DNA of 64,000 nucleotides from Parasphingopyxis algicola (lineage in GTDB: Bacteria > Pseudomonadota > Alphaproteobacteria > Sphingomonadales > Sphingomonadaceae). Shown piece by piece: positions 31,690 through 47,972 of the stretch. The position numbers and the translations under genes are program-made. The number at the start of each line of letters is the position of its first letter. Positions within the stretch are counted from its first letter, which is position 1. The notes beneath the pieces are model-generated. The model did not search any database. It saw nothing but the letters and a program-made list of their open reading frames with translations, and had not been told where the DNA came from. The stretch is from the NCBI RefSeq assembly GCF_013378075.1, contig NZ_CP051131.1, positions 3,360,501-3,424,500 on the forward strand, written 5' to 3'.

Positions 31690-32919
31690 ATGGACGTAGC
31701 ATTTTTCATACCGCCGACCGTCGGATCGAAAGAGGATCTCATGGAAGGTCTCGCTGGACGGCGCACCGATCTCTACCAGCAAATGCTCGGCCATCTCGTC
31801 GAAATCGCGCAATATATGGACGAGTTCGGCTATTACGGGATGGGCTTTACCGAGCATCATCTCTCGGTCGAGGGCATGACGCTTTCGAACAGCCCGCAGA
31901 TGCTCGGCCTCTATCTCGCCAATCATACCAAATATAATCATTACGGCGCGCTCGGCCATGTGCTGCCGGTCCATGATCCGCTGCGCGTCGCCGCCGAAAT
32001 CGCGATGCTCGACCAGATGACCCAGGGGCGCGCCTTTGCCGGCTTCGCCCGCGGCGTGCAGACGCGCTGGATCAATTCGATGGCGCAGCACCGCTACAGC
32101 CTGGCGGACAATATCACCGATCCCGAACAATATAACGAGGATCGCCGCAAGCTGTACTACGAGAATCTCGAAATTATCCTCAAAGCCTGGGACAATGACA
32201 CCTTCTCCCACAAGGGCGATTTCTGGACGCTTCCCGCGCCAAAGACGGACTGGCCGGGGCAGCAGATGAGCCGGGACATGGGCGGTCGGAGCCTCGACAA
32301 GGACGGCAATCTGGTCGAGATCGGCGTCGCGCCGGCGATGTACAACCGCAAGCGCCCGACGATGTTCGAACCCTTCTCGGTCAGCCACGGCTCGATCGAG
32401 ACGGCGGCCGCTAACGGTTTGGTCCCGATCGGTATCATGTGCGATCCCGAAATCGTCGCCGAGCAGGTCGAGGCCGCGCAGCGCGGCTGGGCCAAGGCCG
32501 GCGTCGACACCAAGCCGGGCGAACGGCTCGGCTTCGCGCGCTACATGATCGTCGGCGAAACCGACGAAGAGGCGATGGAATTCGCCGAACTCGCAATGTT
32601 CGAATGGACCTATTTTTTCGCGCAGTTCGGGTTCAACGCCGTGCTCGCCGGCAAGGACGAGGATTGGCAGGACATTCCGTCCACCATTCCCGAATTCATC
32701 AAACGCGGCATTCTGTTCTGCGGCAGCCCCGATACGGTGAACCGGCAGCTGGAAGCGGCGCTGAAGGTCATGCCGATCGATTATCTCTGGCTGTTCACGC
32801 CCAACGAGCTGCTGCCACAGCCCAAGATGATGAAGCATCTCGAGCTCATGACGCGCAAGGTGCTGCCCAACTTCACCGACAAGATCGGGCCCAATGTTCA
32901 CCGCCAGGAAGCCGCCTGA
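31690..32919 (+). CDS. LLM-class flavin-dependent oxidoreductase (luciferase-like monooxygenase)
   Basis: The 409-residue protein has the bacterial luciferase-like (LLM) barrel: GMGFTEHHLSVEGM, the repeated HYGALGHVLPVHDPLRVAAE, and MLDQMTQGRAFAGFARGVQTR. Members use reduced FMN and O2 for hydroxylation or Baeyer-Villiger reactions. Its FMNH2 would come from the flavin reductase at 42272. The C-terminal region (GSPDTVNRQLEAALKVM) is typical of LLM enzymes. The ATG follows GGGAGAG. It leads an operon with hydrolase, ring-cleavage dioxygenase and FAD oxidase, which suggests it makes the catechol or an earlier intermediate. Substrate not identifiable. Confidence 0.85.
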   Translation: MDVAFFIPPTVGSKEDLMEGLAGRRTDLYQQMLGHLVEIAQYMDEFGYYGMGFTEHHLSVEGMTLSNSPQMLGLYLANHTKYNHYGALGHVLPVHDPLRVAAEIAMLDQMTQGRAFAGFARGVQTRWINSMAQHRYSLADNITDPEQYNEDRRKLYYENLEIILKAWDNDTFSHKGDFWTLPAPKTDWPGQQMSRDMGGRSLDKDGNLVEIGVAPAMYNRKRPTMFEPFSVSHGSIETAAANGLVPIGIMCDPEIVAEQVEAAQRGWAKAGVDTKPGERLGFARYMIVGETDEEAMEFAELAMFEWTYFFAQFGFNAVLAGKDEDWQDIPSTIPEFIKRGILFCGSPDTVNRQLEAALKVMPIDYLWLFTPNELLPQPKMMKHLELMTRKVLPNFTDKIGPNVHRQEAA

Positions 32920-32940: not shown

Positions 32941-33816
32941 ATGACCTATCAGAGCCTGTGGACCGATGTTCATCGCTCGAGCTTCGAACAGGGATTCGTC
33001 GACGCGAATGGCGTCCGCACCCGCTATATTCGCGCCGGCGATCCGGACGGGCCCGCGCTGATATTCCTGCACGGCACGGGCGGCCATGCCGAGGCCTTTC
33101 TGCGCAACCTCGATGCCCATGCCGCGCATTTCAACACCTATCTGATCGACTATCTCGGCCATGGCTGGACCGAAAAACCCGAGATCGATTACGAGATGCC
33201 GCAATATTGCCAGCATCTCGCCGATACGATGGATGCGCTGGGCATCGAACACGCGTCGATCTGCGGCGAATCGATGGGCGGCTGGATCGCGGCCTGGTTC
33301 GCGATCCACTATCCCGATCGCGTCGACCGGCTGATCCTCAACACGATGGGCGGCGCGACGATGAACCCGGAGGTCATGAAGACGGTCTACGACAAGACGC
33401 TGGCGGCAGTCGAAAGTCCCGCAACGCATACCAAGCCGCGGCTCGAATGGCTGATGGCCGATCCGTCGGTCGTCACCGACGACCTCGTCGCCTGCCGCGA
33501 GCGGATCTATTCCCAGCCCGGGATGAAGGAGGCGATCAAGCGGATATTGTGCCTGCAGGTCGAGGAGCCGCGCCGCCGCAACCTGATGACCGAGGACAAC
33601 ATGTCCCGGATCAAGGCGCCGACCCTGGTCGTCTGGACGAGCAAGGATCCGACGGCCTCGACCGATGTCGGCAAGATGATCGCCGGCTGGATCCCCGGCG
33701 CCCAATTCACCGTCATGGAAAATTGCGGACATTGGCCGCAATATGAGAAACCGGACGAGTATAACGCGATCTGCCTGGATTTCCTCCTCGAGGACCGGGA
33801 AAAGGCGGCCGCCTGA
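32941..33816 (+). CDS. Meta-cleavage product hydrolase-like alpha/beta hydrolase
   Basis: The 291-residue protein has FLHGTGGHAEAF (oxyanion loop), GESMGGWIA (nucleophile Ser in GESMG) and ENCGHWPQYEKP (catalytic His). This matches MhpC/BphD/TodF-type hydrolases that split the C-C bond of ring-cleavage products. It precedes the ring-cleavage dioxygenase, whose ATG overlaps the stop (TGATG), as expected of a meta-cleavage operon. It would release 2-hydroxypenta-2,4-dienoate plus an acid, the former used by MhpD. Exact acid released is unknown. Confidence 0.85.
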   Translation: MTYQSLWTDVHRSSFEQGFVDANGVRTRYIRAGDPDGPALIFLHGTGGHAEAFLRNLDAHAAHFNTYLIDYLGHGWTEKPEIDYEMPQYCQHLADTMDALGIEHASICGESMGGWIAAWFAIHYPDRVDRLILNTMGGATMNPEVMKTVYDKTLAAVESPATHTKPRLEWLMADPSVVTDDLVACRERIYSQPGMKEAIKRILCLQVEEPRRRNLMTEDNMSRIKAPTLVVWTSKDPTASTDVGKMIAGWIPGAQFTVMENCGHWPQYEKPDEYNAICLDFLLEDREKAAA

Positions 33817-34766
33817 TGCCCGCTCTGCTCGCCGCCACGTCGCACAGTCCGCTGACCAATGTCGAAGGCCAGGCGCCGGAAGATGTCAGCGCCGAATTTC
33901 GCCAGTCGCTCGATGACCTGCGCGAAAAGGTCGCCGCCTTCGATCCGGAACTGGTCATCCAGTTCGGCAACGATCACAATAGCGGCTTCTCGCTGGGACT
34001 GATGCCGCCTTTTCTTATCGGGTTGCGGGCTACCGGGCTCGGCGACTTCGGAACGTCGACCGGACCGCTCCTCATCGACGAGGCGGCCGGCCGGCTGATG
34101 GCCGCGTCGCTGCACGAGGCGGGTATCGATATCGCGACCGGCTATGATGTCGTCTTCGACCATGGCATCGTCTGGGCGCTGGACAAGCTGTTCGGCGGGA
34201 TAGACCGGGTCCCGGTCGTGCCGATCTTCATCAATTGCGGCGGCGATCTGAGACCGCCCTTCCACCGCGCCCATGCGCTGGGCACGGCAGTCGGCGAAAT
34301 TGCCAAGGCCAGCTTCGGCGACACACGCATATTGTTTATCGCATCGGGCGGGCTGTCCCACGATCCCCCGCTGCCGATATTCGAATCCGCGCCGCCCGAC
34401 GTGCAGGAAAAGATGATCGCGGGCACCGAATGGGACGAAGAGAGCCTGAGGCAGCGCACCTTGAGGGTCGCGCAGGCCGGCAAGGATCACGCCGCCGGCG
34501 GAGACGACCTGCTGCCGCTCAACCCCGAATGGGACAATCAGATCATCGCCAAGCTGGAAGCGGGCGATCTCGAATGGCTTGCGCAGATGGACGATGCGGA
34601 GGTCATCCGGCTCGGCGGACGCGGCGGGAGCGAGGTGCGCAACTGGCTGGCGGGCTTTGCCGCGCTGAAGGCCTATGGGGGCGACTATACGGCTTCGAAA
34701 CACTATTATAATGCCGTGAAGGAATGGATCGCCGGTTTCACCATGATGCACGCCAGGGCCGCCTGA
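33816..34766 (+). CDS. mhpB: LigB-type extradiol dioxygenase, MhpB-like
   Basis: The 316-residue protein resembles 2,3-dihydroxyphenylpropionate 1,2-dioxygenase (MhpB) and its class III extradiol relatives. Iron ligands and catalytic His lie in ATSHSP (His10), FGNDHNSGFSLG, and VVFDHGIVWALD; IASGGLSHDPP is the family's later His segment. It opens a catechol ring next to the hydroxyl pair. The ATG overlaps the upstream stop by one base. MhpB is used in E. coli for 3-phenylpropionate; the side chain accepted here is unknown, so the symbol marks family, not proven substrate. Confidence 0.85.
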   Translation: MPALLAATSHSPLTNVEGQAPEDVSAEFRQSLDDLREKVAAFDPELVIQFGNDHNSGFSLGLMPPFLIGLRATGLGDFGTSTGPLLIDEAAGRLMAASLHEAGIDIATGYDVVFDHGIVWALDKLFGGIDRVPVVPIFINCGGDLRPPFHRAHALGTAVGEIAKASFGDTRILFIASGGLSHDPPLPIFESAPPDVQEKMIAGTEWDEESLRQRTLRVAQAGKDHAAGGDDLLPLNPEWDNQIIAKLEAGDLEWLAQMDDAEVIRLGGRGGSEVRNWLAGFAALKAYGGDYTASKHYYNAVKEWIAGFTMMHARAA

Positions 34767-34782
34767 TCCGGGCGAACACCCG

Positions 34783-35889
34783 ATGACGGAAACGGTCGAC
34801 TGCATTGTCATCGGCGCCGGCGTGGTCGGCCTGGCCTGTGCCGCGGCGCTGGCAAAGGCGGGGCGAGAGGTTCTCGTCCTCGAAGCCGCGGAGGCGATCG
34901 GCACGCAGACGAGCAGCCGCAACTCCGAGGTCATTCACGCAGGCATCTATTATTCCGCAGGATCGCTGAAAGCGGAGCTGTGCCGCACCGGCAAGGAGAT
35001 GCTCTACGCTTATGCCGCCGACCGCGGCATTGCGCACAAACGCTCGGGCAAGATCATCGTTGCCAGCGCCGATGCCCAGCTGGCGAGGCTCGAAGAGATC
35101 AAGCGGGCCGCCGCCGCCAACCACGTTACCGATCTCCGGGACCTTGATGCCGCCGGACTCACCGCGCTCGAACCGGCGCTCGTCGGAGTCGGCGGTCTGT
35201 TCTCGCCATCGACGGGCATTATCGACAGTCACGGCCTGATGCTCGCGCTCGAAGGCGATCTCACGAATGCCGGCGGCATGGTCGTGCTGCATACGCCCGT
35301 CCGGTCGGGCGAGGCGATGGACAGCGGCATCGCGCTCACCACGGGCGGGGATAGGCCCATGCGGCTTATCGCGGAAACGGTAGTCAATTGCGCGGGCCTA
35401 TCGGCTCCCTCGGTTGCGCGCTCGATCGCCGGTATACCGTCTGACGCGATCCCCGCGGCTTATCATGCGATCGGCCATTACTATCGGCTGAGCGGACCCG
35501 CGCCGTGCACCCATCTCGTCTACCCGGTGCCCGAACCGGGCGGCCTCGGCATTCATCTGACGCTCGATTTGGGCGGCCAGGCGAAGTTCGGACCGGACGT
35601 GCGCTGGATCGACGAGATCGACTACCGGTTCGACGACAGTCGGTTCGCCGAATTCCTGGCGGCGATCAGGCGCTATCTGCCCGATATCGATGCTGACAGG
35701 CTGGATCCCGATTATACCGGAATCCGGCCGAAGATCGTCGGCCCCGGCGAACCCGCCGCCGATTTCCGGATCGACGGCCCGGAGCGGCATGGCGTGCAGG
35801 GTCTGGTCAATCTGTACGGGATCGAGTCGCCCGGCCTCACCGCCGCACTGGCGATCGGCGACTATGTGAGCGCGATGCTCAGGCGTTGA
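34783..35889 (+). CDS. FAD-dependent oxidoreductase (DAO/LhgO family)
   Basis: The 368-residue protein starts with the FAD-binding GxGxxG motif (CIVIGAGVVGLACAAAL). It continues with SSRNSEVIHAGIYY, a segment typical of L-2-hydroxyglutarate-oxidase-like members of the DAO family, and ends with YGIESPGLTAALAIGDYV. It would oxidise a hydroxy acid or amine using FAD, passing electrons to quinone or O2. It is last in the 31690 operon, 16 bases after the dioxygenase. Its 3' end overlaps the convergent SMP-30 gene by 11 bases. Confidence 0.8.
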   Translation: MTETVDCIVIGAGVVGLACAAALAKAGREVLVLEAAEAIGTQTSSRNSEVIHAGIYYSAGSLKAELCRTGKEMLYAYAADRGIAHKRSGKIIVASADAQLARLEEIKRAAAANHVTDLRDLDAAGLTALEPALVGVGGLFSPSTGIIDSHGLMLALEGDLTNAGGMVVLHTPVRSGEAMDSGIALTTGGDRPMRLIAETVVNCAGLSAPSVARSIAGIPSDAIPAAYHAIGHYYRLSGPAPCTHLVYPVPEPGGLGIHLTLDLGGQAKFGPDVRWIDEIDYRFDDSRFAEFLAAIRRYLPDIDADRLDPDYTGIRPKIVGPGEPAADFRIDGPERHGVQGLVNLYGIESPGLTAALAIGDYVSAMLRR

Positions 35890-36796
35890 ACGGCAGTTTC
35901 AACCCCCGCCGCGGCCAGTCCATCTTGATCAGCCGGCCGGTCAGCGACAGCGTGATATAGGCGGTCTTCATGTCGGGTCCGCCAAAGGCGATGTTCGTGA
36001 CCGCCGGATCGGGAAGCGCGACGAAATCGATCAGCGCGCCATCGGGCGAAAGTACCGTGATGCCGCCCCGGGAAAGGGTCGCGACGCAGATATTGCCATT
36101 CGCCTCGATCGCGAGGGAATCGTATAGGTCGTAGCCGGGCGCGCCATATAATATGGGCTCCGGGTTGAGCAGGCCTTCGGGCACGATCGCCTGGCCGGGC
36201 TCGGGCAGCGCGAATTTCTTGATCCGCCCGGCCATGGTCTCGGCCATGTAGAGGGTCTTCTCGTCGGGCGACAGGCCGATGCCGTTGGCATGGCTGCACG
36301 GATAGACCTGTTCGGAAATGAAGCTCCCGTCGGTCTTCGCATAATAGACCGCGCCGATATCCTCAGACCGCGCATAGCGCTTGCCGTTATCGGTAAACCA
36401 AAAGCCGCCCTGGCTGTCGAAGACGATATCGTTCGGGCCCTTGATCGGCTCGCCGCCGCATTCGGTATAGAGGGTCTCGACCGATCCCGATTGCAGATCG
36501 ACCTTCTGGATGCTGCCGCCCGTATAACTCTCCGGTGTCAGTCCGGGCACGAGACCGCCGTCGATCTCGTGCCATTCGAAGCCGCCATTGTTGCAGACAT
36601 AGACGCAGCCATCGGGCCCGATCGCCGCGCCATTCGGCCCGCCGCCCAGCTCCGCAACGATTTCGGCCCGTCCCTCCGGATACACCCTGGTCAGGGTTTC
36701 GCGCGCGATCTCGACTACCAGGATCGACCCGTCGGCAAGCACGATCGGGCCCTCGGGGAATTGCAGGTCGCCGGTCAGGGTGTCGAAACTGGGCAT
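35879..36796 (-). CDS. SMP-30/gluconolactonase-family protein
   Basis: The 305-residue protein is a six-bladed SMP-30/lactonase beta-propeller. FPEGPIVLADGSILVVEI carries the first metal-binding Glu, GPNGAAIGPDGCVYVCNNG and KGPNDIVFDSQGGFWFTDNG a second site with Asn, and HANGIGLSPDEKTLYMAETM another. It would hydrolyse a lactone, perhaps one formed by a Baeyer-Villiger-type monooxygenase in the cluster. ATG 36796 follows GGAGAG. A longer upstream frame overlaps the next promoter and is rejected. Confidence 0.85.
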   Translation of the reverse strand: MPSFDTLTGDLQFPEGPIVLADGSILVVEIARETLTRVYPEGRAEIVAELGGGPNGAAIGPDGCVYVCNNGGFEWHEIDGGLVPGLTPESYTGGSIQKVDLQSGSVETLYTECGGEPIKGPNDIVFDSQGGFWFTDNGKRYARSEDIGAVYYAKTDGSFISEQVYPCSHANGIGLSPDEKTLYMAETMAGRIKKFALPEPGQAIVPEGLLNPEPILYGAPGYDLYDSLAIEANGNICVATLSRGGITVLSPDGALIDFVALPDPAVTNIAFGGPDMKTAYITLSLTGRLIKMDWPRRGLKLPFNA

Positions 36797-36864
36797 GGGG
36801 TTCTCTCCAATCCGTTTGTCGCTCACCAGACCAATACCGGGCGCACACGGCCGGGCACCTGCTA

Positions 36865-36875
36865 AAGTATAGGTG
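36865..36875 (+). promoter_or_regulatory. Catabolic-cluster element, variant AAGTATAGGTG
   Basis: Two mismatches from AAAGATAGGTG; the ATAGGTG core is kept. It ends 54 bases before the SDR start at 36930, the same distance as at 31635. It lies in the divergent region with the SMP-30 gene. Confidence 0.45.
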
Positions 36876-36929
36876 CAATATCGTCGCGGCGATGGTCGGG
36901 TGGCCGCTGGAGACGAAAAGGGGACGGGA

Positions 36930-37691
36930 ATGTCGAAGGACCTGGACGGCAAAGTCATCGTGATCACCGGCGCCGGAGGCGGCATCGGCGAAGCCGCCGC
37001 CGAAATATGCGCCGCGCAGGGCGCGAGGCTGGTTCTGGCCGGCCGGACGCTGGACAAGGTCGAAACCGTGGCGGACCGTATCGCGCGTTCGGGCGCGGAG
37101 TGTATCGCCTTGCAGGCCGATGTGGCGCGGGGAGACGATGTCCGGAAACTGACCGAGACTGCGGTCGGCGAGTTCGGCCGGCTCGACGGCGCGTTCAACA
37201 ATGCGGGCATCGACGGGGCGCTCGCCCCGGCCGCCGATTATCCGGAAGACGAGTTCGATACCGTGATCGCCGTGAATCTCAAAGGCGTATGGCAATGCAT
37301 GCGGTTCCAGATTCCGGCCATGCTCGAAAGCGGTGGCGGGTCGATCGTCAACAACGCCTCGGCGCTCGGCGAAGTCGGGCAGTTCGCGATGGCCGCCTAT
37401 TGCGCGTCGAAGGCCGGCGTACTCGGTCTGACCAAAGCGGCCGCGCTCGATTACGGCGCGCAAGGGGTTCGCGTGAACGCGATCTCGCCCGGGGTGATCG
37501 AAACGCCGATGATGACATCGCAGATGGACGCGATGCCCGAGCTGCGCGAGATACTGCTGGCACGCCACCCGATCGGACGGCTGGGCGAGCCGGTGGAAAT
37601 CGCCGGGGCCGTGGCCTGGATGCTGTCCGACGCGTCGTCCTTCCTGCTGGGCTCCAACGTCGCGGTCGATGGCGGCTATGCGGCCATCTGA
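36930..37691 (+). CDS. SDR-family NAD(P)-dependent oxidoreductase
   Basis: The 253-residue protein has VIVITGAGGGIGEAA (nucleotide-binding motif), FNNAGIDGAL, NNASALGEVG for the catalytic Ser and AAYCASKAG for the Tyr/Lys pair (YxxxK intact). The C-terminus DGGYAA is typical of classical SDRs. It probably oxidises an alcohol or reduces a carbonyl. ATG 36930 follows GGGACGGGA. The Old Yellow Enzyme gene begins 12 bases after its stop, so both are likely one transcript. Confidence 0.88.
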   Translation: MSKDLDGKVIVITGAGGGIGEAAAEICAAQGARLVLAGRTLDKVETVADRIARSGAECIALQADVARGDDVRKLTETAVGEFGRLDGAFNNAGIDGALAPAADYPEDEFDTVIAVNLKGVWQCMRFQIPAMLESGGGSIVNNASALGEVGQFAMAAYCASKAGVLGLTKAAALDYGAQGVRVNAISPGVIETPMMTSQMDAMPELREILLARHPIGRLGEPVEIAGAVAWMLSDASSFLLGSNVAVDGGYAAI

Positions 37692-37703: not shown

Positions 37704-38795
37704 ATGAACCGATCACCGCTCTTTACCCCGTGCCGCGTCGGCGATGTCGCATTGCCGAACCGGATCGTCATGGCGCCGATGACCCGGCTCCGCGCGCCGG
37801 GCGCCATGCCCAACGCGCTAATGGCCGACTATTACAGCCAGCGCGCGAGCGCGGGCCTGATCATAACCGAATGCACGATGGTGTCCGACACGAGCGCCGC
37901 CTATATGTTCGCGCCCGGCATCTATTCCGACGCGTTCATCGCGCCCTGGCGGGCGGTGACCGATACCGTGCACGAGGCCGGCGGGCGGATCTTCCTCCAG
38001 CTTTGGCATTCGGGGCGCGTGGCCCATGTGTCACTGATGCCGGGCGGCGAAAAACCCTATGCGCCGAGCGCCATTCGCGGCGAAGGCGAACTCCATACGC
38101 CGGAGGGCAAGAAGCGCGTGTCGACGCCGCGCGAGATGACCGTTCCGCATATCACCGGACTGACCAAGGCGTTCGGCAAGGCGGCGGAGCGCGCTCGGCA
38201 AGCGGGGTTCGACGGGATCGAGATTCATGGTGCCTTCGGCTATCTGGTGGACCAGTTTCTGCAGGATGGCAGCAACCAGCGGTCCGATCATTATGGCGGT
38301 TCGTTCGAGAACCGGATCCGGTTCCTGCTCGGCGTCGTGTCCGCAGTTCAGCAGGCGTTCGGCAACGATGTCGGGCTCAAGCTTTCGCCCAGCAACCGCT
38401 ATCACGGGATGAGCGACAGCGACCCGGAAGGGCTTTTCGGTTTCCTGTTGTCGGAACTGGGCGATCACGACCTCGCCTATCTGCATATGATGGAACCGCT
38501 GCCCTTCGACCATGAACAGGGCCATGCGATCGCGGACGTCAAAGCCTTTGCGGCGCGCCACTATGACGGCACGATCATCGCCAATGGCGGCTTCGATGCG
38601 GCAACCGCCGCGCGGGCGATCGCCGATGGCGAGGCCGATCTCGTATCCTTTGCCCAGCTGTTCATCGCCAATCCCGATCTGCCGCGCCGCTTTCGCGAAG
38701 ATCTCGCGCTTGCCGCCCCCGATTTCGCCAAAGTCTACGGCGCCCCGGGGATGGAGTTGAGCGAGGGCTATATCGACTATCCGGCAGCCGACTGA
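37704..38795 (+). CDS. Old Yellow Enzyme-family alkene reductase
   Basis: The 363-residue protein matches NADH:flavin oxidoreductase/Old Yellow Enzyme. PNRIVMAPMTRLRA near the N-terminus, QLWHSGRV near residue 93, and EIHGAFGYLVDQFLQDG with SDHYGGS carry the FMN and substrate-binding residues. It would use FMN to reduce an activated C=C bond. GAGAACCGGC precedes the ATG. Its stop faces the regulator's stop with four bases between. Confidence 0.9.
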   Translation: MNRSPLFTPCRVGDVALPNRIVMAPMTRLRAPGAMPNALMADYYSQRASAGLIITECTMVSDTSAAYMFAPGIYSDAFIAPWRAVTDTVHEAGGRIFLQLWHSGRVAHVSLMPGGEKPYAPSAIRGEGELHTPEGKKRVSTPREMTVPHITGLTKAFGKAAERARQAGFDGIEIHGAFGYLVDQFLQDGSNQRSDHYGGSFENRIRFLLGVVSAVQQAFGNDVGLKLSPSNRYHGMSDSDPEGLFGFLLSELGDHDLAYLHMMEPLPFDHEQGHAIADVKAFAARHYDGTIIANGGFDAATAARAIADGEADLVSFAQLFIANPDLPRRFREDLALAAPDFAKVYGAPGMELSEGYIDYPAAD

Positions 38796-38799
38796 GGTT

Positions 38800-41556
38800 T
38801 CAGGCGATCAGCCCCAATTGCCGCGCCTTGAACACGGCTTCGGACCGGCGGTTGACGCCCATCTTGCCGTAGATCTGCTGGAGATACCATTTGACCGTGC
38901 CGAGCGTGAGGCCGAGATCTTCGGCGATCTCCTTGTTCATCATGCCGGTCGAGATCATCAGCAGGATTTCGGATTCGCGATTGTTAAGCGCTTCGAACTG
39001 TCCGCCGGTTTCCTCCAGATCCTTTTTGGCGGCGGGCGTTGTCGCCCGATCGGAGCCCATCGCGGTCAAAATGGTCTGGTGATGGTCGGCGAGGTCGAAA
39101 TGCTGATCGAAGGTCATGTCTTCGAGCACGGAAAGGACCGCCGGATTGGCGTCGACGAACGACCGGATGAAGCCGCCAGATCCGCCCAGTTGCATGGCCG
39201 TGCGCAGCGAGCGGTGTGCGGCTTTCGCTTCGCCCATGACGATCTGGGCATGGGCCAGCGCCAGCGCCATTTTGAGCGCATAGCGAACGCATTGATGCGC
39301 CTCGAGGAACTGCAGCCAGCGGGCCAGAAGGCTCTCCGCGCCGCTCAGGTCGTTCTCGATGATCGCCACATGCGCCGCCGCATAGGCCGTGGCGGCATCG
39401 ACCGACGTCATGTTGCGGCGTGGTTTCAGCTCTTCGAGATCGGAGGAGATATTGTTGAGCATTCCGATCCGGCGCACGGACGCGGTATCACCGGCGCTGG
39501 TGAATATCCGGATGCGATCGGCGAGGAGAAAGGCCTTCAAACGGTCGAATTGGCGCGCGCCCGCGATCTCCTCGCCTTCTTCGAGTACGCGCAGGGCCAG
39601 ATCGGTGCCCGATAGCGACGCGATCCGCGCTTTGGTCTGGAAACCGGCCACGAGCTGGTCGACCAACCCTGTACGCATCGCCAATGGCAGAAACTCGTCG
39701 ATCAACGCGGTCGCGGATTCCAGATCGTTGCGCTCATATTTGAGGTCGGCAAGATAGAGGGCGGGCATGGCGGTCGTCGGATTGATCCGCCCGACAAGAT
39801 TGGACGCGGTTTCGAAAGCGCTTTCGAAGATGGATTGCGCGCGGGCAAGATCGCCCATCTGGGTGTGCGTGGCGCCGATGATGCAATCATGCCAGACGGT
39901 TGCCCATCTGTTGTTTTCCGCCTCGAAAGTCTCGCGGGCGGATTTCGAAGCGGCGACATTGGAAAAATCGAACAGCTCGCGCTGGGCGTAGATCAGCGTC
40001 GTGCGGGCCACCGCATCCTCGAACGGCGTGCAGCCGCCCTCCATATCCTGCCATTGCCGCGCAAGCTTCGCGACTTTCGGCATCCGGTCCTGCAACAGCA
40101 GGAGCTGCATTTCCCGGTGGATCAGCTTGCGTTCGAGACGCGCGATATCGATGTTCCGGGCCTTCCAGGCCTTAAGCCGATCGGTATCCAGCATCGTCGC
40201 CCGGACGTCGTCGAGCACGCGTTTCGCCTCGCTGAACTGCCAGGTGAGCGTGGCCGCATAGACACGATCGAGCTGCAGCGCCGGATAGTCCTGCAGCATC
40301 TCGGCCGGGATCATCCGCGCATAGCGGAGCAATGTCGCGCCCCGGCCAGTATGCGCGATCTCCTCGGCGGTCCTGGCCAGCAATTCGACCAGATCGTCAA
40401 GCGATTCCGATGCGTTGGCGTGGAACAGGGCCCGTTCGATCCCGCCCTTGCTTTCCAGCCAATCGGCCGCCTTGAGGTGGAGCGCGCTTTTCTTGCGCGG
40501 GGAAAAGGTGTGCAGCCCCTCGGTGAACGCCTCGACGAACAGGGCATGATAGCGATACCAGCCGGGCTCCTCCAAAGGCAGAATGAAGAACTGCTTTTCT
40601 TCCAGCTGGGCGATCAGCTCGGCACTATCGCGTTTACCGCGAATATGATCGGCGAACTCGGCCGAAAACTCGCCGAGCAGGGCGGTATCGCCGACGAATT
40701 CGCCCAGCGCTTCGGGCAGGCTGGCGATGATTTCCTCGCGCAGATAGGCCTTCAGGGTCGGTTCCCTGCCCGAAAGGAGGTGGCCGAGCGGCATGTCCGG
40801 CTTCGCGGCGAGCGCCATCGTGGCGAGCCGGATTCCGGTGGCCCATCCCTCGGTACGCGCGACAATGGTTTCGATCGCTTCGGGCCCGGGATCGTCGGGT
40901 AAAATGGTGGCGATCGCTTCGCGGGCCTCTTCGGGCGCGAATTCCAGGTCGGTGGTTCGGATATCGAGCACCTGGCCGAGCGCGCGCAGCTTGCCCATGC
41001 TGAATTCGAGTTGCTGGCGGCTGTTGATAGCGATGTGGAGATATCCGCAGCCGCTATTGACCAGAAAACCCACCAGGGCGTTGGTTTCGTCCGATGCCGC
41101 GACATGCATATCGTCGATCACCAGCAGCACGGGTTGTTGCAGACCCTCCAGCGCGTTGACGATCGTGACGCCGACGGATTCTATATCGATATCGAAGCCC
41201 GATTTCGCGATTCCGGAGAAAGCCTCTTCAAGCTCCGGCGAGGCGAGCGAGAGCGCGCGAAACAGATGCCGAGAAAACCGGTATACGTCCTGGTCGGCCT
41301 CGTCGCAGGTCAGCCAGGCGGCGGCCCGGCCCTCATCCTTGGCGTGCGCATACCATTGCGCCAGCAACGTCGTCTTCCCGAAACCCGCCGGCGCCACGAC
41401 GTTTACGCAGGCGACCTCCCAGACGAGCTCGCGTTTCTCCGAGAGCCGATTGCGTTCGATGGTCTTGCTGTTGCCGGATTTGGGAGGAGCAAGCTTGGTC
41501 GAGAGCACGACATCCCTGCCTTCGCCGGCCTTGGTTGGAGATAAGGGCGAATTCAT
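38800..41556 (-). CDS. MalT/LuxR-type transcriptional regulator
   Basis: The 918-residue protein has a STAND-type ATPase at the N-terminus (Walker A APAGFGKTT at residues 55-63; LLVIDDMH as Walker B), a long repeat-containing middle region, and a C-terminal LuxR helix-turn-helix (LNNRESEILLMISTGMMNKEIAEDLG to KARQLGLIA). It matches MalT-type activators that respond to a small molecule plus ATP. Located in the middle of the catabolic cluster, it is the best candidate to control the AAAGATAGGTG promoters, though this is inference. It probably continues the operon of the RibB-like gene, 53 bases upstream. No strong ribosome binding site is seen at the ATG. Confidence 0.9.
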   Translation of the reverse strand: MNSPLSPTKAGEGRDVVLSTKLAPPKSGNSKTIERNRLSEKRELVWEVACVNVVAPAGFGKTTLLAQWYAHAKDEGRAAAWLTCDEADQDVYRFSRHLFRALSLASPELEEAFSGIAKSGFDIDIESVGVTIVNALEGLQQPVLLVIDDMHVAASDETNALVGFLVNSGCGYLHIAINSRQQLEFSMGKLRALGQVLDIRTTDLEFAPEEAREAIATILPDDPGPEAIETIVARTEGWATGIRLATMALAAKPDMPLGHLLSGREPTLKAYLREEIIASLPEALGEFVGDTALLGEFSAEFADHIRGKRDSAELIAQLEEKQFFILPLEEPGWYRYHALFVEAFTEGLHTFSPRKKSALHLKAADWLESKGGIERALFHANASESLDDLVELLARTAEEIAHTGRGATLLRYARMIPAEMLQDYPALQLDRVYAATLTWQFSEAKRVLDDVRATMLDTDRLKAWKARNIDIARLERKLIHREMQLLLLQDRMPKVAKLARQWQDMEGGCTPFEDAVARTTLIYAQRELFDFSNVAASKSARETFEAENNRWATVWHDCIIGATHTQMGDLARAQSIFESAFETASNLVGRINPTTAMPALYLADLKYERNDLESATALIDEFLPLAMRTGLVDQLVAGFQTKARIASLSGTDLALRVLEEGEEIAGARQFDRLKAFLLADRIRIFTSAGDTASVRRIGMLNNISSDLEELKPRRNMTSVDAATAYAAAHVAIIENDLSGAESLLARWLQFLEAHQCVRYALKMALALAHAQIVMGEAKAAHRSLRTAMQLGGSGGFIRSFVDANPAVLSVLEDMTFDQHFDLADHHQTILTAMGSDRATTPAAKKDLEETGGQFEALNNRESEILLMISTGMMNKEIAEDLGLTLGTVKWYLQQIYGKMGVNRRSEAVFKARQLGLIA

Positions 41557-41609
41557 GGCGGACCGATCATAGCCTCAGGCTATCGGAAGCGGCAGACCCA
41601 ATCTATCCA

Positions 41610-42275
41610 CTAGGCGAACTGTCCCATTGCGAGACCATCGCTGTCGATTTGCAGCTCGGGCCTGGTGCCGATGCCTTCCAGATAGCGGATATCGATCGCC
41701 GCATCGCCGCGCCGGACGAGCGCCGGAACGAACAGGCGCTTGGCCAGTGCGATGCACTCCTCCGAACTCGCGGTTTCGCCTTCCTCGTCCAGAATATCGC
41801 ACCATGCGATGGCCTCGGACCCCGCATAGCGATGCGCATAATCGAAGGCGAAGGTCGAAAGGTTCGGGTTTCCCGAAATCGTCTCGGGCACGATGGCCGG
41901 CATGATGTGCCCCGGTGTGACGATATCCTCGGTGTCGCAGTGCGGATCGCCGAGCGTGCGGATCGTCAGCGCGCGTTCGGCCGCCGAGATACCGGTTTCG
42001 GTGCACGCCGCCGCTTCGACGCTGGTGACGTACATCGGCATATGATCGCGCTCGACCGCATGTTTGAGCGGCTGCAGCCCGAGCGCATAGGCGCGGCTGG
42101 CCGAAAGGGCGGCGCTGACGACGCCCCGGCCCATGGTCGCCATGACATTGATGCTGTTCGCATCGGAATTCAGCGCCGATTCGAAAAATATGCCGCGGCC
42201 GCGGCCGGCAAGCGTATCGGGATCGACGAGGATCGAGAGGGAAATGCCCCGTTCGCGATAATGTTGCCTGATCAT
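41610..42275 (-). CDS. RibB-fold protein lacking catalytic acidic residues
   Basis: The 221-residue protein resembles 3,4-dihydroxy-2-butanone 4-phosphate synthase (RibB) in its middle: MYVTSVEAAACTETGISAAERALTIR followed by VTPGHIMPA matches the RibB stretch TTGISAADR...RPGHVFPL. The N-terminal acidic loop (DDEDRENEGD in E. coli) is replaced by VDPDTLAGRG, and the GGHTEA segment is not found, so RibB activity is unlikely. The ATG overlaps the flavin reductase stop (ATGA), implying coupled translation. A flavin-binding or other repurposed role is possible. Not a conventional riboflavin gene; function unknown. Confidence 0.6.
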   Translation of the reverse strand: MIRQHYRERGISLSILVDPDTLAGRGRGIFFESALNSDANSINVMATMGRGVVSAALSASRAYALGLQPLKHAVERDHMPMYVTSVEAAACTETGISAAERALTIRTLGDPHCDTEDIVTPGHIMPAIVPETISGNPNLSTFAFDYAHRYAGSEAIAWCDILDEEGETASSEECIALAKRLFVPALVRRGDAAIDIRYLEGIGTRPELQIDSDGLAMGQFA

Positions 42276-42802
42276 GCCGCCATCAGCCTGGCGAGAGGAG
42301 GCAGGGTTTCGGCGCTGCAATATTCGCCCGCCTTGTAGAGCAGGGGGCGGCAATTTTCCCGGGTGCGGACCGCGACCACATTCGCCGCGAACACGCGGTG
42401 CGTGCCGACATCCATCGTCGAAATGGTCCGGCAGGCGATATTGGCGACGGCCGATTGCAAAATCGGGTTGCCGTTCAATTTGCTCCAGCTGCCCGACTGG
42501 AAGCGCAGCGGCGTCAATTTGGTCGACCCGAACATCGTCGCGATATCGCCATCCTCTTCCGAAAGCACGTTGATGGCGAACGATCCGGCGCGCTCGATAG
42601 TATCGAAGATCGAGGCCGATTTGTTCACGCAGATCAGCATCGAATGCGGATCGAAACTCAGCGAGCAGACTGCGGTCGCCGTCATGCCGGCGGGCATGCC
42701 CCGATGTTGCGTCGTTATGAGATGCACCGAGGATGCGACGTTGCGCTGGGCGATGCGATAGGCGTCGGCAAAACCCGGCTGTTCTGGTTCCGCTACGGTC
42801 AT
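42272..42802 (-). CDS. Flavin reductase (HpaC-like domain)
   Basis: The 176-residue protein has the flavin reductase split-barrel: GMPAGMTATAVCSLSFDP, SMLICVNKSASIFDTI and GSFAINVLSEED, with TMDVGTHRVFAANV later. It would supply reduced FMN or FAD to the luciferase-like monooxygenase at 31690. ATG 42802 follows GGGAGTAGAG; a longer frame overlaps the promoter region and is rejected. The recurring element lies 62 bases upstream. It leads the operon with the RibB-fold protein. Confidence 0.88.
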   Translation of the reverse strand: MTVAEPEQPGFADAYRIAQRNVASSVHLITTQHRGMPAGMTATAVCSLSFDPHSMLICVNKSASIFDTIERAGSFAINVLSEEDGDIATMFGSTKLTPLRFQSGSWSKLNGNPILQSAVANIACRTISTMDVGTHRVFAANVVAVRTRENCRPLLYKAGEYCSAETLPPLARLMAA

Positions 42803-42864
42803 GGCTCTACTCCCTCTCCTGCTTTTTTCTATTCTGTTATCCTGCAGGGGCCCGGGGGAACCGC

Positions 42865-42875
42865 CACCTATCTTT
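42865..42875 (-). promoter_or_regulatory. Catabolic-cluster element AAAGATAGGTG (flavin reductase)
   Basis: On the minus strand the sequence is an exact copy of AAAGATAGGTG, ending 62 bases before the flavin reductase start at 42802. Confidence 0.6.
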
Positions 42876-42907
42876 CGGTGAACGAAACGGATCGGCGGCA
42901 CCGTCCA

Positions 42908-42918
42908 TAAGGTAGGTG
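42908..42918 (+). promoter_or_regulatory. Weak copy of the element, TAAGGTAGGTG
   Basis: Two mismatches from AAAGATAGGTG, 33 bases before the MhpD-like start at 42952 (18 bases before the alternative ATG at 42937). Spacing differs from the other copies, so it is the least certain member. Confidence 0.35.
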
Positions 42919-42951
42919 CGCTGCTGGTCTTCCCTGATGCAGGCGTTCGGC

Positions 42952-43743
42952 ATGGAACAATTCGATGCCGATATCCGCGACCGCCTGTCGCAGGAACTCC
43001 ATGAGGCGCTGCGTTCGCGATCGGTCGTGGCGCCGCTGATCGGGCGTTTCGACGGCATCACGATCGAAGACGCCTATGCCGTTTCGCTCGGCATATTGCG
43101 CCGCCGCGAGGCCGAGGGCGAGCAGGTGGTGGGCAAGAAGATCGGCGTCACGTCCAAGGCGGTGCAGGACATGCTGGGCGTGCACCAGCCCGATTTCGGG
43201 TTTCTCACCGACCGGATGCAGTGCGGCGAAACGATCGATTTCGACGCGGCCGGCCTGATCCAGCCACGGGCCGAAGCCGAGATCGCGTTCATCCTGAGAG
43301 AGGGTCTTGCTGGCCCGGGTGTCACCGAGGCCGATGTGCTGGCCGCGACGGAGAGCATCGCCCCCTGTTTCGAGATCGTCGACAGCCGGATCGAGAATTG
43401 GAAGATTTCGATCGTCGACACGGTGGCCGACAACGCATCCTGCGGCGTTTTCGTGCTCGGCGAGGCCCGTGCCGATCCGCGCGATCATGACCTGCCCGCG
43501 CTGAAGGTGACGGTGACCAAGAACGGCGCGCGCCTGTCCGAGGGACTGGGTTCGGCGGTGCAGGGATCCCCGGCCGCGGCCGTCGCCTGGCTGGCCAATA
43601 CGCTTGGCGGCTTCGGCGTCACGCTCGACGCTGGCGATATCGTTCTTTCGGGCAGCCTCGTGCCGCTGGAACCCGCCCAAAAGGGCGATGTTTTCGAGAT
43701 GATGCTCGAAGGCGTGGGCGGCTGCCGCGCGGAATTCGTTTGA
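42952..43743 (+). CDS. mhpD: 2-keto-4-pentenoate hydratase
   Basis: The 263-residue protein belongs to the MhpD/fumarylacetoacetase-fold family. [33 protein letters not shown] and ELG-type segments ([18 protein letters not shown]) carry the metal-binding acids. It adds water to 2-hydroxypenta-2,4-dienoate to give 4-hydroxy-2-oxovalerate for MhpE. ATG 42952 follows AGGCG; ATG 42937 is possible. MhpD, MhpF and MhpE form one plus-strand operon with short gaps. The final acyl-pyruvate steps join central metabolism. Confidence 0.9.
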
Positions 43744-43754
43744 GAGGAAATGTG

Positions 43755-44693
43755 ATGGACAAGATAAAGGCCGCGATTATCGGTTCGGGCAATATCGGCA
43801 CCGATCTGATGATCAAGATCATGCGGACGTCCGATGTTCTCGAAATGGCGGCGCTTGTCGGGATCGATCCGGAATCGGACGGGCTGGCACGGGCGCGCAA
43901 GCTCGGCGTCGCGGCGACGCATGACGGCATAGAAGGGCTGCAGGCGCTCGATGTCTGGCCCGATATCGAGGTGGTGTTCGACGCGACATCGGCCGGCGCC
44001 CATCGCCGCCATCACGACATCGTCACCGGCGCCGGCAAGGCGATGATCGATCTCACCCCGGCGGCGATCGGCCCCTATGTGATCCCCGTGGTCAATGGCG
44101 AGGACCATCTCGACAGGGACAATGTGAACATGGTGACCTGTGGCGGCCAGGCGACGATCCCGATCGTCGCGGCCGTCAGCCGGGTCGCCGAAGTGCCCTA
44201 TGCCGAGATCGTGGCATCGGTATCGTCGCGCTCGGCCGGGCCCGGCACGCGCGCCAATATCGACGAGTTCACCGAAACGACGGCCAAGGGCGTCGAGGTC
44301 GTGGGCGGCGCGGCCAAGGGAAAGGCCATCATCATTCTCAACCCCGCCGAACCGCCGATGATCATGCGCGATACGGTGATGACGCTGAGCCAGGGCGCGG
44401 ACGAAGCCGAGATCGAGGCATCGGTCGAACAGATGGTCGCCGATGTGCAGAAATATGTGCCCGGCTATCGGCTCAAGCAGAAGGTGCAGTTCGAACGGTT
44501 CGGGTCCAACAATCCGGTCCGCATTCCGGGTCTTGGCGAGTTCGAGGGGATCAAGACGAGCGTGTTCCTCGAGGTGGAAGGCGCGGCGCATTATCTCCCC
44601 GCCTATGCCGGCAATCTCGACATCATGACCTCGGCGGGGCTCGCCACCGCGGAGAAGATCGTCGCGAAACGCCATATGCCGGAGGCCGCGTGA
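43755..44693 (+). CDS. mhpF: Acetaldehyde dehydrogenase (acylating)
   Basis: The 312-residue protein has the N-terminal [10 protein letters not shown] nucleotide motif and [13 protein letters not shown] carrying the catalytic Cys. [14 protein letters not shown] near the C-terminus is characteristic of MhpF/DmpF, which turns acetaldehyde, CoA and NAD+ into acetyl-CoA. It normally works in a channelling complex with MhpE. GAGAGGAAATGTG precedes the ATG. The stop overlaps the next gene's ATG (TGATG). Confidence 0.93.
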
Positions 44694-45721
44694 TGCGTTT
44701 CGATCCCACCCAGACCAAGCTCTACATCCAGGACGTCACGCTGCGCGACGGGATGCACGCGATACGCCACCAATACGGGATCGACCATGTACAGAAGATC
44801 GCCAGGGCGCTCGACGAGGCGAAGGTCGACGCGATCGAGATCGCGCATGGCGACGGGCTGAACGGATCGAGCTTCAATTACGGCTTCGGCGCGCACACGG
44901 ACTGGGAGTGGATCGCCGCCGTAGCCGAGGTTGTCGAGCATGCGAAGCTGACGACCCTGCTGCTTCCGGGCATCGGCACCGTCGAGGAACTCAAGCGGGC
45001 CTATGACCTGGGCGTCCGCTCGGTCCGGATTGCGACGCACTGCACCGAGGCCGATGTCTCGAAACAGCATATCGAAATGGCCCGCAACCTGGATATGGAT
45101 ACGGTCGGGTTCCTCATGATGAGCCATATGATCGAGCCCGACCAGCTGGCCGAGCAGGCGCGGCTGATGGAGAGCTATGGCGCGCAATGCGTCTATGTCA
45201 CCGATAGCGGCGGCGCGCTCGACATGGCCGGCTACCGGGCGCGGCTCGACGCCTATGACCGGGTACTGAAGCCGGAAACCGACCGCGGCGTCCATGCCCA
45301 TCACAATCTGTCGCTCGGGGTCGCCAACTCCATCGTCGCCGTCGAGCAGGGCGCGATCCGCGTCGACGCTTCGCTGGCCGGGATGGGCGCGGGCGCCGGC
45401 AACGCGCCGCTCGAAGTGTTCATCGCCGCGGCCGACCGCAAGGGCTGGCGCCATGGCTGCGATCTCTACAGGCTGATGGATGCCGCCGAGGAACTGGTCC
45501 GGCCGTTGCAGGACCGGCCGGTGCGCGTCGACCGGGAAACGCTCTCGCTCGGCTATGCCGGCGTCTATTCCAGCTTCCTGCGGCATGCCGAAAAGGCCGC
45601 GCAGGATTACGGTCTCGATACCCGCGAAATCCTCGTCGAACTCGGTAACCGCAAAATGGTCGGCGGGCAGGAGGACATGATCGTCGATGTCGCATTGGAT
45701 CTGGTCGCGCAAAAAGCGTGA
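44693..45721 (+). CDS. mhpE: 4-hydroxy-2-oxovalerate aldolase
   Basis: The 342-residue protein has the DRE-TIM barrel: [19 protein letters not shown] (the RDGMHA motif), [13 protein letters not shown], and [15 protein letters not shown] with metal-binding His pair. It splits 4-hydroxy-2-oxovalerate to pyruvate and acetaldehyde, which MhpF converts on. The GTG at 44690 is an alternative start. It faces the halohydrin-dehalogenase-like gene with 30 bases between stops. Confidence 0.93.
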
Positions 45722-45751
45722 CTGTTGCGGCCGCCGATACCGAAGGGCTGG

Positions 45752-46429
45752 CTATTGGACCCAGCCGCCCGAGAACGGAATGGCCTGACCGGCGATGAAA
45801 TCGGCGTGTTCGGATGCCAGAAACGCGGCCAGCGCGATATCCTCGCGCGCTTCGGCCAGCCGCCCCACCGGAACATGTTCGGCCAGAAAGGCCTTGAACG
45901 CGTCGCTTTCCACCCGTTCGGCCGGGAAATATTTCTCGTTCTCGACAAAATTCTGCGCGATCAGATTGATCTGCACATTGCGGCTCGCGACTTCCGCACC
46001 GACCGATCGCACATAGCCGACCTGCGCGGACCGGGCGGCGCAATAGGCCGGCATCAGCGCGCGGGCCCGCAGTCCCGTCGCGCTGCCGAAGACGACAATC
46101 TTGCCGGATCGGCGGGCGAGCATCGACGGCAGCGCCGCCTGGACGAGCCAATGCAGGGGGTGGACGAGGAGGTCGAAACATTGACGCCAGCCATCCTCCG
46201 GCAGGTCGAGGACCGAGGTGCCGAGATGCGTATCCGCGGCGAGATTGACGAGGAGAATGTCGATTTTACCGGCGGCGGCCAGCGCTGCGCGGCAGTCTTC
46301 TTTCGTCAGCAGCGGGTCGGTGCTCGCGACGATATCGGCGCCGAGCCCGTCGAAAATCCCGGTCGCCGCCGGGCCCATGAAATCATCGGCACTGGTGACG
46401 AAAATGCGCTTGCCGTCGAACCGGGTCAT
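45752..46429 (-). CDS. Putative halohydrin dehalogenase (SDR-derived)
   Basis: This 225-residue SDR-fold protein does not carry TGxxxGxG; instead it reads T12-S-A-D-D-F17-M-G19, an exact T-X4-F-X-G, the nucleophile-pocket motif of halohydrin dehalogenases. Its catalytic residues are S116, Y129 and R133, an exact S-X12-Y-X3-R, with Arg in place of the SDR Lys. AQNFVENEKYFPAE also resembles the halide-binding region of that family (HheC has NYLHSEDSPYFYP). Such enzymes open or close epoxides by exchanging halide, cyanide or azide without NAD(P). Its ATG overlaps the upstream esterase stop by four bases. Natural roles of these enzymes are mostly unknown; an epoxide step in this cluster is possible. 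Activity is inferred. Confidence 0.85.
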   Translation of the reverse strand: MTRFDGKRIFVTSADDFMGPAATGIFDGLGADIVASTDPLLTKEDCRAALAAAGKIDILLVNLAADTHLGTSVLDLPEDGWRQCFDLLVHPLHWLVQAALPSMLARRSGKIVVFGSATGLRARALMPAYCAARSAQVGYVRSVGAEVASRNVQINLIAQNFVENEKYFPAERVESDAFKAFLAEHVPVGRLAEAREDIALAAFLASEHADFIAGQAIPFSGGWVQ

Positions 46430-47346
46430 GCCGCCGGCGCGCGCGCAAAACTGTCGCGCAGCCAGCCGGCGACATGCGTCACGCAGCGATTGCCCTCCGG
46501 CATCGCGCCGCCGAACGAGAAGAAGCCGTGGAGCTGACCCTCATAGACGAAATAGGAGGTGTCCACGCCGGCGGCGCGCAGCCGGTGCGCATAGGCGCGC
46601 GCCTCATCGATCAGGCAATCGGTATCGGTGGCGATGATCAGCGCCGGCGGCAGGCCGTCGAGATCGGGTTCGCGCAGGGGCGATGCCCGCGGGTCGAGCA
46701 CGGCATCGCCGAAATGCAGCTCGATCGTCGCCACCAGCGCGTCATGCGTCGTGAAATTGGCGCGGTCGAACCGGCTCGGCGCGGCCGAGGCCATGTCGAG
46801 CATCGGATAGATCAGCACCTGCGCGACCGGCAGCTTCACGCCCTGCCGCTTGGCGTCCTGCGCAACCGCGGCGGCGAGATAGCCGCCCGCACTGTCGCCG
46901 CTGACCGCGATGCGCGATCCATCGCCGTCGATCTGACCAGAATCCTCGACCAGCGACCGGTACACCGTAAAACAATCGTCGAGCGGGGCAGGAAAGGGAT
47001 GTTCGGGCGCCTGGCGATACCGCGGCACGACGACGACGCTCTGCGCCTGGTTGGCCAGCATCCGGCTTGTCGGATCGAAATCTTCGGGCGTCAGCATAAC
47101 GCCCCCGCCGCCATGGCAGAACAGGGTAACGGGAAGCGGAGCCTCGTCCGCGTCCGGCCAATAGACGAGGCAATCGACGCCGCCGATTTGCCGGGCTTCG
47201 GCGCGTGCAACGGGCGGCGGTTCGGGCGAAAGGCTTTGCCATAACTCGCTGAAGCCTGCGCGCTGGGCGGCGAGATCATCGGGCGGCGGTCCGGCCGCCG
47301 CAAGCTGCTCGAGAAAATCCTGCGCGAGCGGATCGACGAAGGCCAT
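46426..47346 (-). CDS. HSL-family alpha/beta hydrolase (esterase)
   Basis: The 306-residue protein has FCHGGGGVMLTPEDF (HGGG oxyanion motif), VSGDSAGGYLAAAV (GDSAG nucleophile elbow) and EGQLHGFFSF (catalytic His), the hallmarks of the hormone-sensitive-lipase family (family IV). It would cleave an ester or lactone. It leads a two-gene unit with the halohydrin-dehalogenase-like gene. An exact copy of the recurring element lies 56 bases upstream. Confidence 0.88.
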   Translation of the reverse strand: MAFVDPLAQDFLEQLAAAGPPPDDLAAQRAGFSELWQSLSPEPPPVARAEARQIGGVDCLVYWPDADEAPLPVTLFCHGGGGVMLTPEDFDPTSRMLANQAQSVVVVPRYRQAPEHPFPAPLDDCFTVYRSLVEDSGQIDGDGSRIAVSGDSAGGYLAAAVAQDAKRQGVKLPVAQVLIYPMLDMASAAPSRFDRANFTTHDALVATIELHFGDAVLDPRASPLREPDLDGLPPALIIATDTDCLIDEARAYAHRLRAAGVDTSYFVYEGQLHGFFSFGGAMPEGNRCVTHVAGWLRDSFARAPAA

Positions 47347-47402
47347 GATGCACCTCTTGGTTTCCTGCCAACCAAGCAGTTCCCACGCCTCTCACGACAG
47401 AC

Positions 47403-47413
47403 CACCTATCTTT
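47403..47413 (-). promoter_or_regulatory. Catabolic-cluster element AAAGATAGGTG (esterase)
   Basis: An exact minus-strand copy of AAAGATAGGTG ends 56 bases before the esterase start at 47346, matching the spacing at the receptor and monooxygenase genes. Confidence 0.6.
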
Positions 47414-47972
47414 CGACGGTAAATCTTCACTGTGATGCCGGTCTGGGCCGGATTTCAGAGTGATCAGGTCTGGCAGCCCGGCGAACCGGGCGAAGCCGTT
47501 GCGGTCGTCGCCAAAAATCCCGTTCGTCGCGAACAGGATGGGTCGGGCGGCCGCGTTCGCCGCGAGAGCCGCCGGCATCACGGCACCGGCTGCATCTTGC
47601 GTTCGAAACAGATCGTCATGTCGCTGCTCGCGATAGGTACAGATCTTCGATGAAGTGCGCATGGGGCGCATCGACTTCCTGGAGCAGTTCGCCCGTTTGG
47701 GAGGCCGCCACCCAATGCGCCGATCGACCAGAAGAGCGGCGTCATCAACCCGCCGGCGAAGAGCCGGAGCGAGGGTCGGCAGTCGGGAATTCCGCAAACA
47801 GATTTCCCGGTTTGCGTTTTTCGATAGGTTCAAGCTAGGTTTGGCGGTCGAGAAAATCATTCGACCGCGGTTCGTTGGGTCCGATCTTGCCAGCTCGACG
47901 CCGCAACCGAAGGCTCGGCGCAACGGCATCGTCTCGAAAGGATCTCATATCAGCACAGGAACCGGCGCCGAC
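47414..47972. other. Upstream region of propionyl-CoA synthase, no recognised gene
   Basis: About 560 bases between the esterase promoter element and the start at 47973. Short frames on both strands were examined; the 217-residue minus-strand frame (47276-47929) reads through the esterase start and is not recognised. GATAGGT cores occur at 47633-47639 and 47823-47829, weak relatives of the AAAGATAGGTG element, 333 and 143 bases before the start. Confidence 0.5.

Follow-up and report, generated by a model that had tools for sequence, protein, structure and literature searches.

A predicted halohydrin dehalogenase gene that overlaps an esterase gene at the end of an aromatic-degradation cluster in Parasphingopyxis algicola

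The stretch of DNA analyzed here (the window; 64,000 nucleotides) comes from the 3.67-Mb, single-contig genome of Parasphingopyxis algicola. It contains genes for a ring-cleavage pathway, several flavin-dependent enzymes, a regulator and two short-chain dehydrogenases/reductases (SDRs), followed by a short gene that had been read, from its sequence only, as coding for a halohydrin dehalogenase (HHDH) (Table 1). The HHDH open reading frame (ORF) occupies exactly the interval given by that reading, which had named no strand; it starts with ATG and has no internal stops; the plus strand of the same interval holds only a shadow frame. The uncommon aromatic cluster itself spans positions 30733 to 45721.

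Table 1. Features of the HHDH gene and its neighborhood, in window coordinates (G331, a genome of the same family but another genus)
Feature	Position	Strand	Remark
Luciferase-like flavin monooxygenase	31690..32919	+	
HsaD/MhpC-type meta-cleavage-product hydrolase	32941..33816	+	under family cut-offs
LigB/MhpB-type extradiol ring-cleavage dioxygenase	33816..34766	+	
L-2-hydroxyglutarate-oxidase-like (L2HG-oxidase-like) flavoprotein	34783..35889	+	under that family's cut-off
SMP-30/gluconolactonase-like protein	35879..36817	-	68% identical in G331
Ordinary SDR	36873..37691	+	
Old yellow enzyme (N-ethylmaleimide-reductase-like; ene-reductase)	37704..38795	+	
MalT/LuxR-type regulator	38800..41556	-	
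DHBP-synthase-like (RibB-like) protein	41610..42353	-	
Flavin reductase	42272..42901	-	
2-Oxopent-4-enoate hydratase-like (DmpE-like)	42916..43743	+	358 bits versus cut-off of 408.8
Acetaldehyde dehydrogenase, acetylating (DmpF)	43740..44693	+	
4-Hydroxy-2-oxovalerate aldolase (DmpG)	44690..45721	+	convergent with HHDH gene
HHDH family protein, 225 aa	45752..46429	-	predicted from motifs, solved relatives, tree and alignment
NFVENEKYFP loop, residues 160 to 169	45923..45952	-	at position of SDR Pro-Gly segment; mostly conserved in clade
Motif 2, S116-x12-Y129-x3-R133	46031..46084	-	predicted catalytic triad
Motif 1, T12-x4-F17-x-G19 (TSADDFMG)	46373..46396	-	nucleophile-pocket motif at position of SDR glycine-rich turn
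Hormone-sensitive-lipase-type esterase (Abhydrolase_3)	46426..47346	-	HGGG and GDSAG

Read rightwards, the region ends with the genes for DmpE, DmpF and DmpG on the plus strand, those for the HHDH and the esterase on the minus strand, and those for a propionyl-CoA-synthase-like and a malonyl-CoA-reductase-like protein, again on the plus strand. The stop of the esterase gene, which lies upstream, overlaps the HHDH start on the same strand by 4 bp (46426 to 46429; ATGA), and 30 bp separate the stops of the HHDH gene and the convergent dmpEFG genes. A simple scan of positions 45600 to 48100 found no sigma-70-type promoter site, and the promoter/terminator scan did not rise above shuffled sequences. 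The gene layout makes cotranscription of the HHDH gene plausible with the esterase gene only.

The pair to the right (47973 to 57182, plus strand) consists of a protein of 1,828 aa from its likely start at 47973, with acyl-CoA ligase, enoyl-CoA hydratase and crotonyl-CoA-reductase-like regions, followed by a double SDR of 1,226 aa; the names propionyl-CoA synthase and malonyl-CoA reductase are those of enzymes in the 3-hydroxypropionate bicycle. The malonyl-CoA-reductase-like protein had strong relatives in 17 of 199 genomes of the family (source counted); the three other genus members listed had none. In all four of those 17 genomes that were examined, the two genes were adjacent, at 70 to 77% identity.

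Two sequence fingerprints have been published for HHDHs, T-x4-F/Y-x-G and S-x12-Y-x3-R (PMC4989007, PMC11976700). The sequence-only reading had claimed both for the window protein, and both proved to be exact and in register, sharing alignment columns with the motifs of HheB, HheD2 (7b73) and HheC. When 92 HHDH rows (the window protein, four solved enzymes and 87 loci) were aligned with the two window SDRs, S116, Y129 and R133 were invariant in 92/92 HHDH rows. Since the motifs fall in the same columns as those of HheB, HheD2 and HheC, and since the triad is invariant, their occurrence in the window protein is not a matter of chance. Thr12 was present in 91 of the 92 rows, the exception being a protein of Novosphingobium resinovorum pSA2 that has Ser there, and position 17 was occupied by Tyr in 63 rows and by Phe in 29. 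Ser13 was unique to the window protein; Gln was the most common residue at that position (78 rows). In a first pass over the fetched DNA, in which motif 1 was sought within the first 60 residues only, both motifs were found in 75 of 82 HHDH-like ORFs versus 0 of 78 SDR-like ORFs, and once N-terminal extensions had been trimmed, both were present in 91 of the 92 HHDH rows. Two of the 78 SDR-like control ORFs had motif 1 without motif 2.

Where the two window SDRs have Gly in column 13, Ser or Gly in column 17 and Lys in column 133, the window HHDH has Ser, Phe and Arg and thereby departs from the classical SDR pattern (T-G/A-x3-G/A-x-G and Y-x3-K). Features of the SDR cofactor site are missing from the sequence, Ser13 and Phe17 standing where the turn has small residues, and in the catalytic motif Lys has given way to Arg133. 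A loose match to the SDR pattern at residue 23 (TGIFDGLG) is out of register. Further along, A158-Q159-N160 aligned with the S-P-G of the window SDRs and led into the NFVEN segment, which was largely conserved among the HHDH rows (N160 in 84/92, V162 in 88/92, E163 in 86/92 and Y167 in 90/92). NFVENxxYFP had been proposed as the substitute for the SDR cofactor motif. The stretch is indeed present, at residues 160 to 169, but what it replaces is the later Pro-Gly segment, the glycine-rich cofactor motif being replaced at residues 12 to 19; the proposal is therefore right in part only.

When solved structures were searched with phmmer, the window protein matched HheB (4zd6; 1.6e-60, 207.8 bits; variant 5b12), 8xxb (8.2e-56) and 7b73 (3e-51, 177.5 bits), whereas the top ordinary SDRs were FabG enzymes, from 2e-24 (89.8 bits); the closest solved HHDHs thus outscored the best ordinary SDR by 88 to 118 bits. 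Structure 7b73 is HheD2 (PMC9629495) and 5o30 is HheG (PMC11976700); a literature search on the code 8xxb found no paper. HheG, with 71.9 bits, fell within the score range of SDRs, as did 6a41 (87.1 bits), whose deposited name is "dehalogenase", so that similarity scores separate the B and D types from SDRs but not the G type. It is very improbable that the protein is simply an NAD(P)-dependent SDR of the ordinary kind and HHDH-like by motif only: Pfam and NCBIfam label it as an SDR and nothing else, but the glycine-rich turn, the Pro-Gly segment and the catalytic Lys are all altered, most SDR models and chains begin to align with it no earlier than residue 24 (a few extend back to residue 5 to 10), and the 25 NCBIfam scores listed, of 170, are every one far below their cut-offs.

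The maximum-likelihood tree comprised 94 rows (90 different). Rows were obtained from 87 of the 88 loci offered; the missing one is L078, whose matched stretch is interrupted by a stop and which is likewise absent from alignment A2 (40 loci plus the window protein). The window HHDH was separated from the two SDR outgroups with support of 100/97 and grouped with HheB in a clade of 21 rows (86/91), where its end branch was long (1.46) and no starred set surrounded it. It was joined to L079 at 81/25, in a tree whose bootstrap had not converged and which carried a long-branch warning. HheD2, the sole enzyme in the tree recognized as D type, formed a starred branch of its own with 8xxb (100/99) that excluded the window HHDH. 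HheC lay outside a 91-row group, and the extreme length of its branch leaves its position with little meaning. The tree, which included four solved enzymes, separated the window protein from SDRs in line with the sequence-only reading and placed it in the HheB clade; with an unconverged bootstrap and long branches, it did not fix the subtype.

HheB of Corynebacterium sp. N-1074 (44.8% identity; 45% over 221 residues) shares with the window HHDH both motifs, the length class (227 aa) and the register of the loop, but it has Tyr at the aromatic position of motif 1 where the window HHDH has Phe17, and the common clade has a support of only 86/91. HheD2 and 8xxb (43.2% and 46.2% identity, respectively) have Phe in motif 1 and an NFV(D/E)NxxYFP loop like that of the window HHDH, although they branch separately from it. 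HheC of Agrobacterium radiobacter AD1 (1pwx) has the same motif and triad columns, but its identity is 25.5% over 184 residues and it carries a C-terminal extension that the window HHDH does not have.

The motifs, the closest solved relatives and the alignment all agree with the family membership that had been claimed. These results suggest, with a probability of roughly 0.85, that the gene product is a halohydrin dehalogenase that works without a cofactor and belongs to the B/D-type part of the family; this estimate covers both class and chemistry. The protein is probably a divergent B/D-type member of the known family. Enzymes of this family are homotetramers that dehalogenate vicinal halohydrins reversibly and have a nucleophile pocket instead of a dinucleotide site. 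HHDHs act through a Ser-Tyr-Arg triad and use no nicotinamide cofactor (PMC4989007). By analogy with the mechanism of HheC and HheB, Arg133 would lower the pKa of Tyr129, and a vicinal halohydrin would be held at its oxygen by Ser116 and give up its hydroxyl proton to Tyr129. The substrate oxygen would then displace the halide into a pocket formed by residues 12 to 19 and the 158-to-169 loop, which would yield an epoxide and halide, and small anions could drive the reaction backwards.

The distribution of the gene was sporadic within the order. A search of 396 genomes of the order at a threshold of 1e-35 gave matches in 10 (weakest, 3.7e-51), namely the source genome, one other of its family and eight of a single genus in another family. 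Within the genus, the gene was detected in 1 of 10 genomes, the source itself, and was absent from the nine others searched; completeness is 90% or more, with contamination no higher than 5%, in 7 of the 10. In another search, of nine genomes without a strict limit, nothing fell between the source's own match and ordinary SDRs (best, 2.7e-22). The family sample likewise had the gene in 1 of 367 genomes, again the source; the second family genome with a match in the order search (G333) was evidently outside this sample, and the order, genus and family samples overlap. A collection of named genomes yielded 225 confirmed HHDH loci in a scan that was keyed on two peptide patterns and may miss relatives lacking those peptides. 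The best 80 of these were 48 to 56% identical to the window protein and, by record title, came mostly from Gamma- and Alphaproteobacteria, many of them metagenome assembled. This scattered distribution suggests that the HHDH gene was gained by transfer. GC content and third-position GC content of the gene were like those of its neighbors, so a recent gain is indicated by the distribution alone.

The closest counterpart of the surrounding cluster was found in G331, a genome of the same family but another genus, which has 14 cluster genes in common with the window at 47 to 82% identity (dmpEFG, mhpB, hsaD and the genes for the monooxygenase, flavin reductase, RibB-like protein, regulator, ene-reductase, SDR, lactonase-like protein, L2HG-oxidase-like protein and esterase). 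G331 also has a relative of the first window SDR, at 51% identity. In G331 the esterase gene, whose product is 67 to 68% identical to that of the window, lies inside the cluster, between mhpB and the L2HG-oxidase-like gene, whereas in the window it stands at the cluster end, paired with the HHDH gene. Because this homologue sits inside the same aromatic cluster, the window esterase is, as judged by sequence and gene order, an aromatic-pathway gene. G331 lacks an HHDH: the best match there (4.5e-21) is at the level of ordinary SDRs. The position of the esterase gene in G331 is the strongest evidence that links the HHDH to the pathway, and it comes from one genome. The link to the esterase and the aromatic pathway that had been claimed is borne out in part, by the 4-bp same-strand overlap and by the homologue in the G331 cluster, but G331 itself does without an HHDH and just one genome showed the coupling. 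Rather than a standard ring-cleavage step, the HHDH appears to be something that this lineage added to the aromatic cluster.

The cluster was rarely encountered elsewhere. Matches to dmpE at 1e-60 occurred in 29 of 199 genomes (source counted), and of the dmpE regions examined in other genera (G331, G059, G498, G407, G450, G486 and G425), only that of G331 contained this aromatic cluster. A search for the monooxygenase at 1e-120 in 296 genomes of the order returned the source's own match only, G331 evidently being outside that sample. Among plasmid records, there were no esterase matches at 1e-50 and three records with monooxygenase matches, at 37% identity. Relatives of the esterase at 46 to 50% identity in three other genomes had no further window gene nearby. 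Part of the gene list would fit a coumarin or phenylpropionate pathway by analogy with hcdABC (PMC6222606). This reading was not adopted, since the monooxygenase belongs to the luciferase family and its closest solved relative, 3,6-diketocamphane 1,6-monooxygenase, matches at 4e-11 only.

How the HHDH fits into this setting was assessed against the neighbors of other HHDH genes. Eighteen other window genes were sought at 1e-20 around 88 HHDH loci (83 distinct places), and 15 of them, including the genes for the esterase, dmpEFG, mhpB, hsaD and the monooxygenase, were found near none. The second SDR, the first SDR and the ene-reductase were matched in 17, 13 and 2 of the 88 loci, at 26 to 39% identity among the matches listed, as expected of generic families. 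With phmmer at 1e-8 and 90 loci (84 distinct places), esterase relatives were again found at none and HsaD-like hydrolases at three, all 6.6 to 7.1 kb away and on the opposite strand; more than 5 kb was available on both sides in 61 of the 90 loci, so these absences are incomplete. Coregulation with ring cleavage, which had also been claimed, finds no support, given the convergent orientation of the HHDH and dmpEFG genes, the promoter scan and the lack of such neighbors at any other HHDH locus examined.

The neighbors that did recur around other HHDH genes varied by locus and, named from their first residues only, included glyoxalase-like, RND-efflux-like, TauD-like, branched-chain-ABC-like and malate-synthase-like groups. 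The glyoxalase-like and RND-type-efflux-like groups (e.g., at L028 and L056) were on the HHDH strand in 20 to 23 of the 88 loci each, at a median distance of 2 to 4.5 kb. The HHDH-like protein of N. resinovorum pSA2, which like the source is a sphingomonad, is 48% identical to the window HHDH but has Ser for Thr12 and is encoded in a different cluster. There (L107, 13796 to 15669), the gene, annotated as an SDR, lies 11 bp behind an epoxide hydrolase gene, in the company of genes for a PQQ dehydrogenase and mandelate-racemase-like proteins.

A strong contender, which we rate at a little under even odds, is that a true HHDH has merely accidental neighbors: the gene would have landed, on its acquisition, between the aromatic cluster and the genes of the propionyl-CoA-synthase-like pair, and its product would act on an unrelated halohydrin or epoxide, in detoxification. 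The lack of ring-cleavage and esterase genes at the other HHDH loci, the convergence with dmpEFG and the similarly sporadic occurrence of the adjoining propionyl-CoA-synthase-like pair all fit this explanation, as does the haloalcohol detoxification function presumed in print (PMC11536340). It accounts less well for the esterase, which is no stranger to the cluster, because the closest relative found is inside the aromatic cluster of G331. Another explanation, a dedicated pathway step acting on an epoxide or halohydrin derived from an aromatic or phenylpropanoid substrate that may be halogenated, could draw on the 4-bp overlap with a pathway esterase gene and on the make-up of the cluster (ene-reductase, lactonase-like protein, flavin monooxygenase plus flavin reductase, ring cleavage and dmpEFG). 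It seems unlikely, however, given that G331 carries the same cluster without an HHDH, that the context is absent from the other HHDH loci examined and that an epoxide-forming step is not evident in the cluster.

For the predicted B/D-type HHDH we tentatively propose a cellular role, at odds distinctly below even, in which the enzyme was gained by the lineage and became coupled to the pathway esterase, its epoxide product being hydrolyzed afterwards. The esterase might free or trim the substrate in the cell, and hydrolysis of the epoxide might fall to an EHN-type epoxide hydrolase, one of which was found in the source genome, outside the window and about 1.1 Mb from the HHDH gene. The stronger proposal, that the HHDH is a working step after the esterase in phenylpropanoid- or coumarin-like aromatic catabolism, acting on a natural halohydrin or epoxide, is doubtful and would be a long shot. 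If true, it would give the HHDH family a physiological substrate beyond haloalcohol detoxification.

A 2016 review allowed that HHDHs may have further physiological functions (PMC4989007), and according to a 2025 paper the epoxides and haloalcohols tested are probably not the natural substrates of HheC (PMC11976700). Against this background, the overlap with a pathway esterase gene offers a single specific clue to a natural substrate, and one that can be tested. As a family member the window HHDH is ordinary, and its interest lies mainly in this one lead from context, which comes from one genome, is not to be over-read and does not amount to evidence on the natural substrate of the family. A divergent HHDH about 45% identical to HheB would also be a useful addition to a biocatalysis panel.

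Two other ORFs of the window, both on the plus strand, were characterized in passing. That at 9828 to 18194 (2,788 residues) has GH94 and glucoamylase-type domains and is presumably of the cyclic beta-glucan synthase kind. That at 25601 to 26941 codes for a protein of the erythromycin esterase family (Pfam, 3.1e-128); because its scores fall well short of the cut-offs for EreA and EreB, it is probably not a resistance gene, and it lies two ORFs before a phosphoribosyltransferase-like ORF.
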